Below, piece after piece: positions 17,291-22,131 of a stretch of 32,654 bases of DNA; within the stretch, counting starts at the first letter, position 1, and each line of letters opens with the position of its first letter. The translations under genes were made by a program, and so were the position numbers. The DNA comes from Streptomyces sp. NRRL B-1347. GTDB lineage: Bacteria; Actinomycetota; Actinomycetes; Streptomycetales; Streptomycetaceae. The notes below the pieces were generated by a model. It was given only the letters and a program-made list of their open reading frames with translations, made no database searches and had not been told where the DNA came from. Location of the stretch: assembly GCF_000720325.1 (NCBI RefSeq), contig NZ_JOJM01000080.1:1-32654 (forward strand). Direction: 5' to 3'.

Positions 17291-17998
17291 CTAGGACGGC
17301 AGCACGGCGGGCGGCGCGAGCGCGGCGAGGCGGGACAGCAGGTCCGCGAACGGGCCGTCGGCCGGCTCCTCGGCGAGGACCTGCCCCAGCAGCTCGGCCA
17401 TCTCCGGGTCGTACGCGGCGCTGACCGCGGCCAACGCCGCGAAGTCGTGCACGAGTTGCAGCTCCAGCTCGGCCCGCGGAATGCGGCGGCCGTCCAGCCA
17501 GATCAGGGCGGTGGACTCGGCGAGCGAGATCCAGGAGCGCACCACGAGCTCCAGGCGCGCGGGCGGCGCGGCGATGCCCAGATGCGCGACGATCTGGTCG
17601 TACGCGGCCTGCCGCACCGAGTCGATGAGGGCGTTCGTCGTGGAGGAGCCGACGGCCGGGCCGCCGCGCATCAGCGCGTAGAAGCCCGGCCCGTGCTCGT
17701 CGACGAAGCCGAAGAACCGGCCCGTCACCCGCAGCAGGCGGGCGCCGAGCGGCCCCTCGCGCGGCTCCACGAACCGCTCGGCCAGCTCGTCGGCGGCGCG
17801 CTTCAGGGCGGCCTCGTACAGGCTGAGCTTGCCGGGGAAGTAGTGGTACACGAGCGGGCGCGAGATGCCCGCGGCCGAGGCTATCTCGTCGATGGAGACG
17901 TCCTCGGGCGAGCGATGGCTGAACAGTTCGAGCGCGACCCCGATCAGCTGCTCCCGCCGCTCCTCCACACCCATCCTGCGCCGCGTCCCCGTAGTCAT
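17291..17998 (-). CDS. TetR/AcrR-family regulator
   Basis: The 235-residue regulator has an N-terminal TetR helix-turn-helix (about residues 14-60, with LIGVALELFSHRSPEDVSID and AAGISRPLVYHYFPGKLSLY) and a helical ligand-binding domain. It is the last gene of a same-strand set with the flavin reductase and the PF10118 protein; the 74-base gap before it contains its own TAGAGT -10 box (18005-18010) six bases from the ATG, so it may also be transcribed separately as a leaderless mRNA. It probably represses its upstream neighbours and itself; the ligand is unknown, though hydrophobic ligands are common in this subfamily. Confidence 0.92.
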   Translation of the reverse strand: MTTGTRRRMGVEERREQLIGVALELFSHRSPEDVSIDEIASAAGISRPLVYHYFPGKLSLYEAALKRAADELAERFVEPREGPLGARLLRVTGRFFGFVDEHGPGFYALMRGGPAVGSSTTNALIDSVRQAAYDQIVAHLGIAAPPARLELVVRSWISLAESTALIWLDGRRIPRAELELQLVHDFAALAAVSAAYDPEMAELLGQVLAEEPADGPFADLLSRLAALAPPAVLPS

Positions 17999-18004
17999 GC
18001 GAAC

Positions 18005-18010
18005 ACTCTA
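18005..18010 (-). promoter_or_regulatory. -10 box of the tetR gene
   Basis: TAGAGT (minus strand) ends six bases before the tetR ATG at 17998, suggesting a leaderless transcript. A good -35 box is not seen. Confidence 0.4.
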
Positions 18011-18072
18011 CCGATCCGGCCGGGGCATGAACGGAGGCCCCCGCTCCGCCCGTTCGCCGCCGGGGCGCGCGG

Positions 18073-19158
18073 TCACAGGTCGAGGACGATCCGCTCGCCG
18101 CGCGCCCGGGACACGCAGATCAGCATCGAGTCGCCCCGCTCGCCGTCGGTGAGGAGCTCGTCCCGGTGGTCGATCTCGCCCTCCAGGACCCGCTGTTGGC
18201 AGGTGCCGCAGAAGCCCTGCTCGCAGGAGTACGGCGTGCTCGGCAGCTCCGCGCGGACGGCGGCGAGCACCGTGGTGTCCGCGCCGACGGCCACCGTGCG
18301 GCCGCTGCGGCGCAGTTCGACCTCGAAGGCGCCGCTCCCGCCCGCGGGGGCGCGGGGCGCGAACCGCTCCAGGTGCGGCGGCCTTTCCTCGGGCAGCGCG
18401 GCCGTGACGGCGGCCATGAGCCCTTCGGGCCCGCACACGTACACGGCGGCGCCCCGGTCCGCGGCACCGGCGAGGAACGCGGTGACGTCCGGCCGCCCGG
18501 CCTCGTCCTCGGCGACGACGGTGACCCGCTCGCCGCCGGCCTCCTCCACCTCGTCGAGGAAGGGCAGGGAGGCCCGGCTCCGCCCGCAGTACAGCAGCCG
18601 CCAGTCGGCGCCCGCGGCCTCGACGGCCCGGATCATGGGCAGCACCGGGGTGATCCCGATGCCGCCCGCGACGAACACGTACGCGGGGGCGTCCGCGACC
18701 AGCGGGAAGCGGTTGCGCGGCCCGCGCACCTCGACCTCCGCGCCCTCGCGCAGCTCGTCGTGCACCTCGCGCGACCCGCCCCTGCCGCCCTCGTCCGCGC
18801 CGATCCTGCGGGTGGCGATCGTGTACGCGGACGGGTCGCCGGGGTCGCCGCACAGCGAGTACTGCCGTACGAGGCCCGACGGCAGGACGAGGTCCACATG
18901 GGCGCCCGGCTCCCAGGCGGGCAACGCCCGCCCCTCCAGGCGCAGTCGGACGACGCCGTCGGCGACCGGCTCGTGGCGGGCGACGCGAAGGCGCAGCGCC
19001 CGCGAGCGCGGCTGCCCCGAGACGGGCGTCTCAAGGGCGGGCAGCGGCCACAGCGGCGAGCCGTCGATGCGGCGGCGCAGGGCGCGCCTGGTCCGCCCGG
19101 CGAGCAGGGCGGCGCCGGTGACGAGCAGGGCGGCGCGGGCGGTGCGGGGCAGCGGCAT
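18073..19158 (-). CDS. Flavin reductase with C-terminal [2Fe-2S] ferredoxin domain
   Basis: The 361-residue electron-transfer protein starts with a short hydrophobic segment (residues 7-21) and a basic stretch, so it may be membrane-associated. A flavin domain follows with RQYS (98-101), then an NAD domain with GGIGITP (165-171) and CGPEG (242-246), then a plant-type ferredoxin domain with Cys312, Cys317, Cys320 and Cys348 (C-x4-C-x2-C-x27-C). This is the design of reductases that feed electrons to oxygenases. ATG at 19158 gives no overlap; GTG at 19164 would give a GTGA overlap with the stop of the upstream gene. Either way it is translationally close to the PF10118 gene, whose product is its likely electron acceptor. 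Confidence 0.92.
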   Translation of the reverse strand: MPLPRTARAALLVTGAALLAGRTRRALRRRIDGSPLWPLPALETPVSGQPRSRALRLRVARHEPVADGVVRLRLEGRALPAWEPGAHVDLVLPSGLVRQYSLCGDPGDPSAYTIATRRIGADEGGRGGSREVHDELREGAEVEVRGPRNRFPLVADAPAYVFVAGGIGITPVLPMIRAVEAAGADWRLLYCGRSRASLPFLDEVEEAGGERVTVVAEDEAGRPDVTAFLAGAADRGAAVYVCGPEGLMAAVTAALPEERPPHLERFAPRAPAGGSGAFEVELRRSGRTVAVGADTTVLAAVRAELPSTPYSCEQGFCGTCQQRVLEGEIDHRDELLTDGERGDSMLICVSRARGERIVLDL

Positions 19159-19160
19159 GG

Positions 19161-20081
19161 TCACGCGGCTCCGTTCGCGCGGGCCTCGGCGGCGGTGGCG
19201 GCGGGGGACGAGGCGAGGTAGGCCACGGCCTGTGCGGTACTGCCCTCCTGGGAGGGGTGGTAGGAGCGGCTCAGATACCGGGGGATGGAGCGGACCATGG
19301 CCCCGGTGGTGGGCAGCGTGCCCGCGCGTCCGCTCCGGTGGAAGTCCTTGAAGGTCGCCCTGGCCGCCCCGGGGCCGAGCGTCGGGTCGTTCTCCATGAA
19401 GAAGCGGGCCCCGCGCTGCCACAGGAACACGAGCGCGGTGAACGCGGTGGCCCAGGTGCGCACCCGGCGCCGGTAGCAGCCGTCGACGTGCATGAACAGG
19501 TCGAAGGCGACGGAGCGGTGCTCGACCTCCTCGGCGCCGTGCCAGCGCAGCAGGTCCAGCATCGTGGGGTCGGCGCCCCGCCGGTCCAGCTCCCGCGCGT
19601 TCAGGACCCAGTCGCCGAGGAAGGCGGTGTAGTGCTCGATGGCCGCGATGATCGCGACCCGCTCCAGGAGCCACCAGCGGCGGGCCCGGCCCGGCGGCAG
19701 GGTGCGGTCGCCGAGCAGCTTCTCGAAGAGCCAGTCGACCTGCGCGGTGTACGGGGTGGGGTCGAGCCCCTGCTCCCGCAGGTGCGGCAGGACCTCGTCG
19801 TGGGCCTGGGAGTGCATGGCCTCCTGGCCGATGAACCCGATGACGTCCGCGCGCAGTCGCTCGTCGCGGATGAGGGGGAGCACCTGCTTGTACACGTGCA
19901 CGAACCAGCGCTCTCCCGCGGGCAGCAGGAGGTGCAGGACGTTGATCGTGTGGGTGCTGAAGGGGTCGCCCGGGAGCCAGTGGAGGGGCGTCTCCGCCCA
20001 GGAGAAGGAGACGTTGCGGGCCTTGAGCGGTATGTGCTCGGAGGCGACGGGCTGGGGGAGCCGGGCCTTCGTATTAGACAT
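19161..20081 (-). CDS. PF10118 'metal-dependent hydrolase', probable diiron oxygenase
   Basis: The 306-residue helical protein matches the family annotated as metal-dependent hydrolase (PF10118/COG3687). The sequence carries a complete carboxylate-diiron residue set: Glu57, Glu87-x2-His90 (with His94), Glu149 (followed by His150) and Glu185-x2-His188 (with His181), spaced like the four helices of a ferritin-like diiron oxygenase. The next gene, only 2 bases away, encodes a [2Fe-2S] flavin reductase, the usual electron donor to such enzymes. I therefore infer an O2-dependent hydroxylase, desaturase or N-oxygenase rather than a hydrolase; the substrate is unknown. ATG at 20081 was chosen; no strong ribosome site is seen, and the in-frame extension to 20141 is unsupported. 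Confidence 0.85.
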   Translation of the reverse strand: MSNTKARLPQPVASEHIPLKARNVSFSWAETPLHWLPGDPFSTHTINVLHLLLPAGERWFVHVYKQVLPLIRDERLRADVIGFIGQEAMHSQAHDEVLPHLREQGLDPTPYTAQVDWLFEKLLGDRTLPPGRARRWWLLERVAIIAAIEHYTAFLGDWVLNARELDRRGADPTMLDLLRWHGAEEVEHRSVAFDLFMHVDGCYRRRVRTWATAFTALVFLWQRGARFFMENDPTLGPGAARATFKDFHRSGRAGTLPTTGAMVRSIPRYLSRSYHPSQEGSTAQAVAYLASSPAATAAEARANGAA

Positions 20082-20098
20082 GGCGTCAATGTACGGCC

Positions 20099-20120
20099 GG
20101 GTAACCCCGTGGGTACACCC
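20099..20120. promoter_or_regulatory. Possible TetR operator
   Basis: Two adjacent palindromic units, GGGT-A-ACCC and GGGT-AC-ACCC, lie 18-39 bases upstream of the PF10118 start. Their position in the promoter of the operon that encodes a TetR regulator makes an operator plausible; nothing else supports it. Confidence 0.3.
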
Positions 20121-20178: not shown

Positions 20179-22131
20179 CTAGTGGAGGACGGTCAGCTCG
20201 GTGTCGTCGGCGAGACGCGCGGTCAGTTGGAGACGTTCGCCCTGCTTCGCAGGCAGTGCGGCCACGTGGCCGGTCACCGGCTCGCGGCCCGAGACCCGCA
20301 CCGATGCCACGTCCTCGCTGCCCGCGGCAAGGACGTACCAACTCCCCGTACGGGCCTTCCACAACACGCCCGCGAGCACGCGCGGCTCCCGCTCGCCGCA
20401 GGCGGGCGAGTTCTCCGCCTTGGCTGCGACGGCGCCCGCCGCGGCGCCGGGCGTCACGACCTGGGCGAGGGCCTGGCTCCCGGCGCCCCGCCACGTCTCC
20501 GCGCGGGTGCACAGCCACCGCGCCCGGCCGCTGCCGTCGGGCAGGTCCTGGCGGGCGTACTGCCAGGCGTTGACGGACCGGACGCCGTGCGACCGCGCGG
20601 CGGCGAGGGAGCACGCGGTCCGCTCCCAGTCGGCGGCGCGGGCGTCGCGGGGCGCGGTGGGCCGGCCCGCGGTGAGGCGGGCGGGGGTGAGCTCGCCGAG
20701 GTCGGTGGAGAGCCGCGTGGCGCCGTCCGCCTCGCGCAGCTGGAGCGCGTTCCAGGACCGGCAGTCGCCCGCGAGCGCCGGGCTCGCGAAGGGCGCGGTG
20801 ACGCCGTCGGCGCCGCGCCGCAGCCGGGTGGCGGCGGCGCTCGGCTTGAGCAGGTCGAGGACGGCGGCGGAGCGCACCCAAGGGGCCGTCAGATAGCGGA
20901 CGTTGCCGTCGGAGCGGCCGAGCACGACCGCGCCGGAGTCGGCGGCGGTGGCGCCGTCGACCCGTGCGAAGTCGAGCGCGGCGCCGCTGGTGCCGTCCTT
21001 GGGCTCGGCGTACCGCACCACGCGCAGGCCGTCGTGGAGGAGGACCACGCGCGCGGCGTCGACCTCGCCCGCGAAGAGGAGCTGCGCGGGCCCGGGCGGC
21101 GCCCCGGCCGCCGTGCCGGGCGTCGCCGACACCCGTACGGACTTGCCGGGCCGCGCCCACACCGCGAGGGCGCGGCGCAACAGGGCGGTGTCGCCGACGA
21201 GTTCGCCGCGCGCGGGCCACACGGTGAAGTCGGTGCGCGGGGACCGCTGCCAGGCGGTGGGCGTGGCCTTCGTCAGCTTGGCGGGGTCGAGCGCGGCCTC
21301 GGCGGCCGGGTTCTTCGCGTACGGGGGCGCGGCGGCGCCGTCCGGGCCCCAGCCGTCGCCCGGCATGCCGAGCAGCGCCCCGCAGACCAGGGCGGCCGCG
21401 GCGGCGACGGCCGCGGCCCGCAGGTGCTGCCTGCGCCGCATCAGGTCGGTGGGCCTGGCCTGGAGCGAGCACGGGTCGAACTCGGGCGACTCCAGGAGCG
21501 CGTACAGGGCCTCGACGCCGTCGGCCTCGGTGAGCGCGGTGTCCGCGTCGGCGACCCCGGCGGCGTCGAGGGCGCGGCGCACCTCGTCGTCCCCGAGCCG
21601 TTCGAGGCCGCGCAGCACGTAGGCCGCGCGTGCCGGTCCTGACAGGGCAGAGAGCCGCTGGTCCAGGGCGAGTTCGTCGGCGCCGCCGGAGCGCGGGAAC
21701 AGCCGCAGGCCCCACACCTGTGGCAGCAGCGGCGGCAGCTGGGACCGCTTGGGCCACGCCCGGCGCCGGAGCGGCAGGCCCGCTTCGAGGGCGGCGCGCA
21801 GCACTTGGCGGCGTACGTAGGCGTAGCCGGGGTCGGCGCCCCGGCCGGGGCCGCGCTGGTCCGGCACCACCGCCGTCTGCGTGCGGCCGCGGGGCAGCGC
21901 CCGCTGGACGAGCGCGTGCGCGGTCAGGACCCGGCGGTTGCGGCCGAGGCCGGGCGGCAGGACCAGGTAGGCGAGGCGGACCAGACGGGGGTAGTGCTCG
22001 ACGAGGGCGGCTTCGGCCTGCTCGACGTCGACGACGGACCTGCCGGGGCCGGTGTCCCCGGCCCCTCCGGTCGGCGCTGCGGCTTTCGTGGACTGCGATG
22101 ACGACACGTTCAGCAGAACGAGCGAGCGCAC
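20179..22131 (-). CDS. Membrane protein with degenerate ECF-sigma-like N-terminus
   Basis: I do not recognise the whole 650-residue product. Residues 37-115 (EAALVEHYPRLVRLAYLVLP, then a basic helix around YAYVRRQVLRAAL) resemble region 2 of an ECF sigma factor, and residues 152-200 (LDQRLSALSGPARAAYVLRG, DDEVRRALDAAG) resemble region 4, but both are divergent. A single transmembrane helix follows (about 237-256). The rest (about 257-650) would be extracytoplasmic: it has scattered Trp, four or so Cys (as in GDCRSWN, ERTACSL, ARWLCTR, SPACGER) and ends in a beta-rich stretch. GTG at 22131 is taken as the start; GTG at 22107 is an alternative. It follows the TPR gene by 11 bases, so the two form an operon. 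Confidence 0.65.
   Translation of the reverse strand: MRSLVLLNVSSSQSTKAAAPTGGAGDTGPGRSVVDVEQAEAALVEHYPRLVRLAYLVLPPGLGRNRRVLTAHALVQRALPRGRTQTAVVPDQRGPGRGADPGYAYVRRQVLRAALEAGLPLRRRAWPKRSQLPPLLPQVWGLRLFPRSGGADELALDQRLSALSGPARAAYVLRGLERLGDDEVRRALDAAGVADADTALTEADGVEALYALLESPEFDPCSLQARPTDLMRRRQHLRAAAVAAAAALVCGALLGMPGDGWGPDGAAAPPYAKNPAAEAALDPAKLTKATPTAWQRSPRTDFTVWPARGELVGDTALLRRALAVWARPGKSVRVSATPGTAAGAPPGPAQLLFAGEVDAARVVLLHDGLRVVRYAEPKDGTSGAALDFARVDGATAADSGAVVLGRSDGNVRYLTAPWVRSAAVLDLLKPSAAATRLRRGADGVTAPFASPALAGDCRSWNALQLREADGATRLSTDLGELTPARLTAGRPTAPRDARAADWERTACSLAAARSHGVRSVNAWQYARQDLPDGSGRARWLCTRAETWRGAGSQALAQVVTPGAAAGAVAAKAENSPACGEREPRVLAGVLWKARTGSWYVLAAGSEDVASVRVSGREPVTGHVAALPAKQGERLQLTARLADDTELTVLH

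Follow-up and report, generated by a model that had tools for sequence, protein, structure and literature searches.

Among described systems, those closest to the locus reported here are the N-oxygenases AurF, CmlI, AzoC and DnfA (PF11583), ribonucleotide reductase R2, MMOH and toluene monooxygenase, and the Rieske systems of the VanAB/phthalate dioxygenase type. The locus lies in a 32,654-nucleotide stretch of DNA from Streptomyces sp. NRRL B-1347 (contig NZ_JOJM01000080.1; the whole stretch is referred to as the window), in which a gene for a protein of the family PF10118 ('Metal_hydrol') is followed, in the direction of transcription on the minus strand, by genes for a flavin/[2Fe-2S] reductase and then a TetR-family regulator. 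The PF10118 protein shares with the N-oxygenases four long helices and an E/ExxH/E/HxxxExxH residue set in which seven positions align and, like DnfA, it has an FNR/[2Fe-2S] partner gene (PMC9478400, available portion). It differs from PF11583 in having no Pfam-level similarity to that family, in an extra invariant histidine, His94, and in carrying Glu187 where the N-oxygenases have an invariant Arg. R2 gives the best profile score and matches in fold, with Glu184 of the PF10118 protein aligned to an invariant Asp of R2, although R2 has Tyr or Phe in place of His94 and Ile or Val in place of His181, and the PF10118 protein has no match to PF00268. The bacterial multicomponent monooxygenases MMOH and toluene monooxygenase, both of which appear among the fold matches, have a diiron hydroxylase fold and, as a distinct protein, a reductase. 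In contrast to MMOH, neither a beta subunit nor a coupling protein was recognized among the open reading frames of the window beside PF10118, the [2Fe-2S] domain of the partner reductase is C-terminal, and the PF10118 protein is ∼200 residues shorter than the listed MMOH chains. The VanAB-type systems possess a homologous reductase, whereas the PF10118 protein is not a Rieske enzyme but is predicted to be helical and to hold a diiron site. Alkane-oxidizing R2lox (PMC10867098, available text) is a precedent for the fold only. The data described below lead us to view PF10118 as a branch, so far unrecognized, of the dimetal-carboxylate enzymes of ferritin-like type that resembles AurF/CmlI and R2/R2lox most closely in make-up, and we conclude with considerable confidence that the protein encoded here is a dimetal-carboxylate redox enzyme fed by the adjacent reductase. 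A preliminary description of the locus had proposed that this annotated hydrolase is a diiron oxygenase with its own reductase and regulator. The computable checks favoured that proposal, with corrections regarding His150, His94 and co-occurrence with the reductase.

The residues on which the proposal was founded (Glu57, Glu87xxHis90, His94, Glu149, His150, His181 and Glu185xxHis188) are all present in the PF10118 protein, which contains exactly two ExxH motifs. The pattern is a strong one because it is conserved across the family. Thus, E57, E87, H90, H94, E149, H181, E184, E185, E187 and H188 are identical in every sequence of two alignments (26/26 in A1 and 80/80 in A2), both of which include the window's protein, and the family-wide conservation predicted for E/ExxH/E/ExxH was borne out. 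A1 comprises 26 diverse members of a single phylum, with identities as low as 22%: the window's protein and 25 of 29 other PF10118 matches, the near-copies L005, L006 and L009 and the fragment L030 being excluded. It displays 17 invariant columns (R22, E57, D73, F83, Q86, E87, H90, H94, E149, W180, H181, E184, E185, E187, H188, P257 and P276), of which 12 are proposed metal-site residues, His94 included, or their direct neighbours. The additional histidines had been likened to those of N-oxygenases. This holds for His181, which corresponds to the extra ligand of the AurF/CmlI type, but not for His150, which is not a family-wide feature (His in only 21 of the 26 A1 members).

The AlphaFold2 model of the PF10118 protein is confident (pLDDT 93.6) and locates the ligand residues on four long helices. 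All 50 PDB matches listed for it are dimetal-carboxylate proteins (ribonucleotide reductase R2, R2lox, MMOH, CmlI and AurF), while the model of a relative with 28% identity returned CmlI and AurF as its top PDB matches, its 50 listed rows being R2, R2lox, AurF, CmlI or MMOH. Desaturases, aldehyde-deformylating oxygenase and toluene monooxygenase-type hydroxylases also occur among the fold matches. Comparison with ferritin-like diiron enzymes, as the preliminary description had suggested, therefore yielded a confident model whose listed matches are mostly dimetal-carboxylate enzymes. Convergence of the ligand positions is predicted from helix placement and fold match. Sequence searches of solved structures with PF10118 identified no relative (none up to E 1 in one search), and phmmer with an AurF-family sequence likewise found none among solved structures. 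Matches to glucose-6-phosphate isomerase, a designed protein and 4-chloro-allylglycine synthase (E 0.19–0.47) were at chance level and were discarded. A membrane-bound oxygenase was also considered, as the fifth helix is hydrophobic, but a Kyte–Doolittle (KD) value of ≥1.6 is reached by 14 of 26 PF10118 proteins compared with 11 of 16 AurF proteins; this reading was dropped because PF10118 is no more hydrophobic than AurF.

To place the family among known diiron proteins, the profile of the 26 A1 proteins was aligned (hhalign) to five families collected from genomes: AurF (16 sequences; nine of 25 loci, L130 and L135–L142, unused), R2 (16 of 18 loci), acyl-ACP desaturase (19 of 20 loci), PaaA/PaaC (four of 25 extractions lost) and haem-oxygenase-like oxidases (one of 25 lost). 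R2 was the best of the five (probability 14%, E 0.0019); in this alignment E87, H90, E149, E185 and H188 are in register, the register being lost in helix A. No decoy among 120 equalled the real R2 score, the nearest having an E-value of 0.008. The match to the AurF family is weak (probability 3.7%, E 0.012), yet E57, E87, H90, E149, H181, E185 and H188 fall on E88, E119, H122, E171, H198, E202 and H205 of that family, positions conserved in 16, 16, 16, 13, 12, 16 and 16 of its 16 sequences, respectively. The set comprises three His and four carboxylates, as in AurF/CmlI. Neither the score nor the seven matches were reached by any of 120 AurF decoys (60 column-shuffled and 60 block-shuffled); block shuffles matched at most six positions and the reversed profile four. 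On the same E-value scale AurF–PaaA gives 0.0081, R2–desaturase 0.0053, R2–PaaA 0.071 and AurF–R2 8e-07, and the distance of PF10118 from R2 and AurF is thus comparable to some distances within the superfamily. As R2 and AurF fit better, the haem-oxygenase-like oxidases (PF14518, the sole family of this type tried; E 0.33, none of the seven named positions), PaaA/PaaC (E 0.35, four of seven) and the acyl-ACP desaturases (E 0.83, two of seven) were rejected as closest kin. At Pfam neither PF11583 nor PF00268 was matched, PF10118 being the only hit at E 0.001.

The profile alignments also bear on His94, which had been grouped with the N-oxygenase-like histidines. The AurF family offers no equivalent of it, the column there holding Phe (14 sequences) or Tyr (2), and it aligns instead with an R2 column that holds Tyr (12) or Phe (4; n = 16 in each set). 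In R2 this column, four residues after ExxH, is that of the radical tyrosine (Phe in class Ic). The invariant His94 therefore argues against R2-like radical storage at this position, and the residue is a candidate eighth ligand or relay. The extra His94, together with Glu187 in place of Arg204 of the AurF family, makes the site AurF-like without being that of AurF. The seven diiron residues of DnfA, AurF and CmlI, as given in the accessible part of PMC9478400, match PF10118 by motif and approximate spacing rather than by direct alignment, and the same applies to those of AzoC in the portion of PMC6783550 available. The latter source gives the motif E-X28-37-DExxH, which fits the PF10118 protein twice with the Asp replaced (E57-X28-Q86-ExxH and E149-X34-E184-ExxH).

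The association with the reductase was explored in two sets of gene neighbourhoods. In 80 homologous loci (the best 80 of 586; 79 from Streptomyces and one from Microtetraspora), tblastn showed the reductase gene to follow directly, in the same orientation, in every case. The distance from the PF10118 stop to the first possible reductase start ranges from −11 to +3 in 78 loci (two gave no start), −4 (27 loci), −1 (21) and +1 (15) being the commonest values; the separation of two bases in the window itself is correct if the reductase starts at its ATG. A TetR gene follows in 77 of the 80, the exceptions being L090 and L094, where the stretch ends soon after the reductase, and L051, where it continues. 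The second set comprised 29 neighbourhoods, that is every PF10118 match of a 296-genome sample of the phylum except the window. In two of its reductase-linked neighbourhoods one gene intervenes, coding for an alpha/beta hydrolase or a homologue. On a tree of 37 proteins (fragment L203 excluded) reductase linkage requires three changes, compared with 12.5 in shuffles. Among plasmid records, 75 had a PF10118 match; of the eight inspected, three have an adjacent PDR/VanB oxidoreductase. In the converse search, of 17 genomes chosen with bias as having PF10118, the window's reductase gave 22 close matches (≥47% identity). Fifteen adjoin PF10118; among the other seven, three are neighbours of VanA_C/Rieske oxygenases and two form fusions with cytochrome P450. 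The Rieske neighbours and P450 fusions support the view that this type of reductase serves oxygenases. The natural P450–reductase fusions are located at L260 2495–4972 and L262 2495–4846. In one relative (L210 5845–7952) the PF10118–reductase pair sits among replication genes, flanked by those for DNA polymerase III beta and gyrase B.

Several observations weigh against the interpretation of PF10118 as a reductase-fed diiron enzyme. In the lone protein the residue pattern exceeds chance only moderately and is no more than suggestive: E/ExxH/E/ExxH at ferritin-like spacings arose in 2,092 of 100,000 shuffles of the sequence, and in 78 of 100,000 when a His four residues before the last ExxH was included. 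The best Foldseek E-value, 0.016, is weak, and another 50-row fold listing contains three less specific rows, one a TENA/THI-4-domain protein and two chains of an uncharacterized ferritin-like protein. The seven-position match to AurF is obtained at default settings; without realignment it falls to six, E57 being lost, and in global mode (E 0.79) no position maps. Finally, the co-occurrence proposed in the preliminary description holds for the close loci but not for the whole family, a co-directional reductase gene following in 14 of the 29 neighbourhoods and in 11 of 26 when three Streptomyces orthologues are set aside. Linkage belongs mainly to one large PF10118 subgroup and is absent elsewhere. 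Owing to the global-mode alignment and the less specific fold rows, our confidence in the dimetal-carboxylate assignment was lowered, though only slightly.

The assignment as a dimetal-carboxylate redox enzyme draws on gene order, residues, conservation, predicted fold and reductase linkage, from which we infer the identity of the metal, electron transfer, O2 chemistry, substrate and direction of regulation. In the proposed mechanism NAD(P)H would reduce the flavin of the neighbouring reductase, and electrons would pass via its [2Fe-2S] cluster to the diiron site of the PF10118 protein, which Glu57, Glu87, His90, Glu149, Glu185 and His188 would hold and to which His181 would add a seventh ligand of the AurF type. 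Once reduced, this site would activate O2 and insert an oxygen atom into a substrate that may well be a hydrophobic or lipid-like molecule, while the TetR protein would probably repress the operon promoter until an inducer binds. We favour, with appreciably less confidence than for the redox assignment itself, the view that the enzyme is specifically a monooxygenase, the oxygenase half of a two-component system. The more detailed proposal, that PF10118 may constitute a family of its own, as yet without a name, of dimetal oxygenases that are driven by a reductase and have a site of four His and four Glu, in which His94 is an eighth ligand or a proton/electron relay and which has diversified widely on lipids and other hydrophobic molecules, is tentative.

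The genes surrounding relatives fit hydroxylation or epoxidation of hydrophobic compounds. Pfam, run on 20 chosen neighbour genes, identified SDR proteins, SDR–alpha/beta-hydrolase fusions, FMO-type flavoproteins, WS/DGAT and another acyltransferase; further neighbours encode acyl-CoA ligase, aldehyde dehydrogenase and, beside one relative, limonene-1,2-epoxide hydrolase. The Pfam scan also gave DNA polymerase III beta, gyrase B, a kinase and an MFS transporter, which have no bearing on role. The Streptomyces operon itself has none of the SDR, FMO, acyltransferase, CoA-ligase or epoxide-hydrolase type genes found beside relatives. These neighbours are relevant to the strongest alternative, in which a protein of the same fold, also fed by the reductase, acts as an oxidase or desaturase-type enzyme and catalyses two-electron oxidation, dehydrogenation or decarbonylation with no oxygen insertion. 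Such an enzyme shares the core of the favoured explanation and differs in outcome. The presence of desaturases, aldehyde-deformylating oxygenase and R2lox among the fold matches is consistent with it, but the epoxide hydrolase, SDR and FMO neighbours are better suited to a hydroxylated or epoxidized product, and relatives of the reductase serve oxygenases; we regard this alternative as rather unlikely. That PF10118 is an N-oxygenase acting on an amine, as are AurF, CmlI and AzoC, is a sub-case of the oxygenase proposal. It would accord with the alignment of all seven AurF-family ligand positions and with CmlI as the top structural row for one PF10118 member. The sequence distance from PF11583, with no Pfam match, the occupation of the AurF-invariant R204 position by Glu187, the replacement of Phe/Tyr by His94 and the fact that no amine-biosynthesis gene was recognized among the neighbours scanned make it improbable. 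Less probable still is a rubrerythrin-like role in iron storage, peroxide scavenging or O2 sensing with no organic substrate. While the helical bundle is compatible with a ferritin-like protein of this kind, and the reductase could supply electrons for peroxide reduction, the listed matches are of the R2/AurF/MMOH type, and the occurrence of several PF10118 genes in one genome, adjoining those for SDR, CoA ligase and acyltransferase, suggests diverse organic substrates. A metal-dependent hydrolase, as annotated, is very improbable. In its favour are the family name and PMC8960859, where Prot_241 is a group of candidate proteases from its correlation and co-expression with precursors of class III lanthipeptides; the available text of that paper gives correlation without a test of PF10118. 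Against it are the listed fold matches, which are redox dimetal proteins save the TENA/THI-4-domain and uncharacterized ferritin-like ones, and the redox reductase that neighbours PF10118 in all 80 close loci. Both terms of the preliminary description, 'oxygenase' and 'not a hydrolase', are predictions.

The assignments of the individual genes are consistent with these roles. The PF10118 gene product scores 260.5 bits at Pfam against a cut-off of 33.2. The reductase is recognized through Fer2 (49.0 bits, cut-off 21) and NAD_binding_1 (33.2 bits, cut-off 22). Its closest NCBIfam model is PaaE, at a score far under the cut-off of the model, and FAD_binding_6, which was not reported for it at E 0.001, was reported in two relatives that adjoin PF10118, in one case above the cut-off and in the other close to it. 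Cx4Cx2C and RxYS motifs are visible by eye in the reductase sequence, and we take them to have their usual meaning in such proteins. At the N terminus of the reductase a short hydrophobic segment precedes an Arg-rich one, and its orthologues are alike in this respect; a KD value of ≥1.6 is reached in 26 of 78 loci, the window's reductase falling short, and the hydrophobic stretch is a possible membrane tether. A 650-residue protein with no Pfam match is encoded at 20179–22131 of the window and is present in 72 of the 80 homologous loci, usually directly upstream on the same strand.

Immediately upstream of the PF10118 gene is a leader that is near-invariant in the window and the 80 fetched loci (one of the 81 rows, L078, was mis-anchored), its conservation running into the first codons. 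The position of this leader directly before the ATG provides good support for the start codon. The span of the system had previously been extended to 20120, which includes part of the promoter region. As the −10-like hexamer ends so close to the ATG, a leaderless transcript is suggested, and the leader looks like a leaderless promoter with an overlapping operator, although the window's own left half-site of the quasi-palindrome has diverged. A scan for consensus sigma-70 promoters and terminators found nothing, and an earlier operator candidate was dropped as it was inconsistent across loci. A search of the whole genome for the leader motif (≤3 mismatches) identified 16 sites, the window's own with two mismatches and the other 15 with three, compared with six sites for a reversed-pattern control; a TetR regulon with a second target is not claimed. 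The system may be inducible, the basis for this being conservation of the gene together with that of the operator-like promoter.

Features of the PF10118 locus, with coordinates in the window
Feature	Position	Strand	Remarks
PF10118 'Metal_hydrol' protein, 306 aa	19161-20081	minus	ATG at 20081; predicted diiron (or Mn/Fe) oxygenase component
Reductase, 361 aa, PDR/VanB type, FAD/NAD(P)/[2Fe-2S], C-terminal Fer2	18073-19158	minus	Predicted electron donor
TetR-family regulator	17291-17998	minus	TetR_N, TetR_C_46; best NCBIfam match FasR, below cut-off
Glu57 codon	19911-19913	minus	First carboxylate, helix 40-70; invariant; aligns with AurF-family E88
Glu87xxHis90xxxHis94	19800-19823	minus	Helix 74-95; ligand pair and extra invariant His94
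Glu149 codon	19635-19637	minus	Helix 132-160; invariant; aligns with AurF-family E171 and R2 E163
His181xxxGlu185xxHis188	19518-19541	minus	Helix 172-199; AurF-type HxxxExxH; aligns with AurF-family H198/E202/H205
Conserved leader directly before PF10118 ATG	20082-20103	minus	Consensus TACCCGTCAGTACATTGACGCC
TANNNT -10-like hexamer TACATT	20088-20093	minus	Ends six bases before ATG
Quasi-palindrome overlapping TACATT	20084-20099	minus	Operator-like

PF10118 is widespread but not universal in Streptomyces, at least one gene being present in 80 of 121 genomes. The genome that contains the window has a second PF10118 gene (L199 5941–6810), a paralogue with 56% identity that adjoins genes judged by eye to encode an SDR-type protein and a MerR-like one, with no such reductase within ∼6 kb. 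A fragment covering only profile positions 2–93 (L203 5989–6279) occurs in a genome with three longer copies, and nine PF10118-like places are found in NZ_CP104448.1, a chromosome-sized plasmid record (4.09 Mb, Acinetobacter). At least 4,172 database clusters match the window's PF10118 protein (8,000 candidates scored), and in 240 rows of these matches the source names are hydrolase, hypothetical or uncharacterized labels. In one open-access library, a search that took in neither most subscription journals nor the Pfam clan lists, no description of PF10118 as diiron was found, and PMC8960859, available in part, was the sole paper found to name the family. A 'metal-dependent hydrolase' downstream of prmABCD was set aside, as no tie to PF10118 was established from the accessible text of PMC4428276.

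The common database label 'metal-dependent hydrolase' is probably wrong for PF10118. This label already steers research, as the counting of the family among lanthipeptide proteases in the available text of PMC8960859 illustrates; if the protein is an oxygenase, the link between PF10118 and lanthipeptides reported there needs another explanation. Should PF10118 proteins prove to be diiron oxygenases, thousands of genes, some of them in lipid- or hydrocarbon-oxidation neighbourhoods, would gain a testable chemistry, and one large subgroup of the family would gain a ready-made electron partner. The family would also offer a dimetal site with a histidine at the radical-tyrosine position, and so a means to probe how the scaffold chooses between radical storage, N-oxygenation and C–H oxidation.

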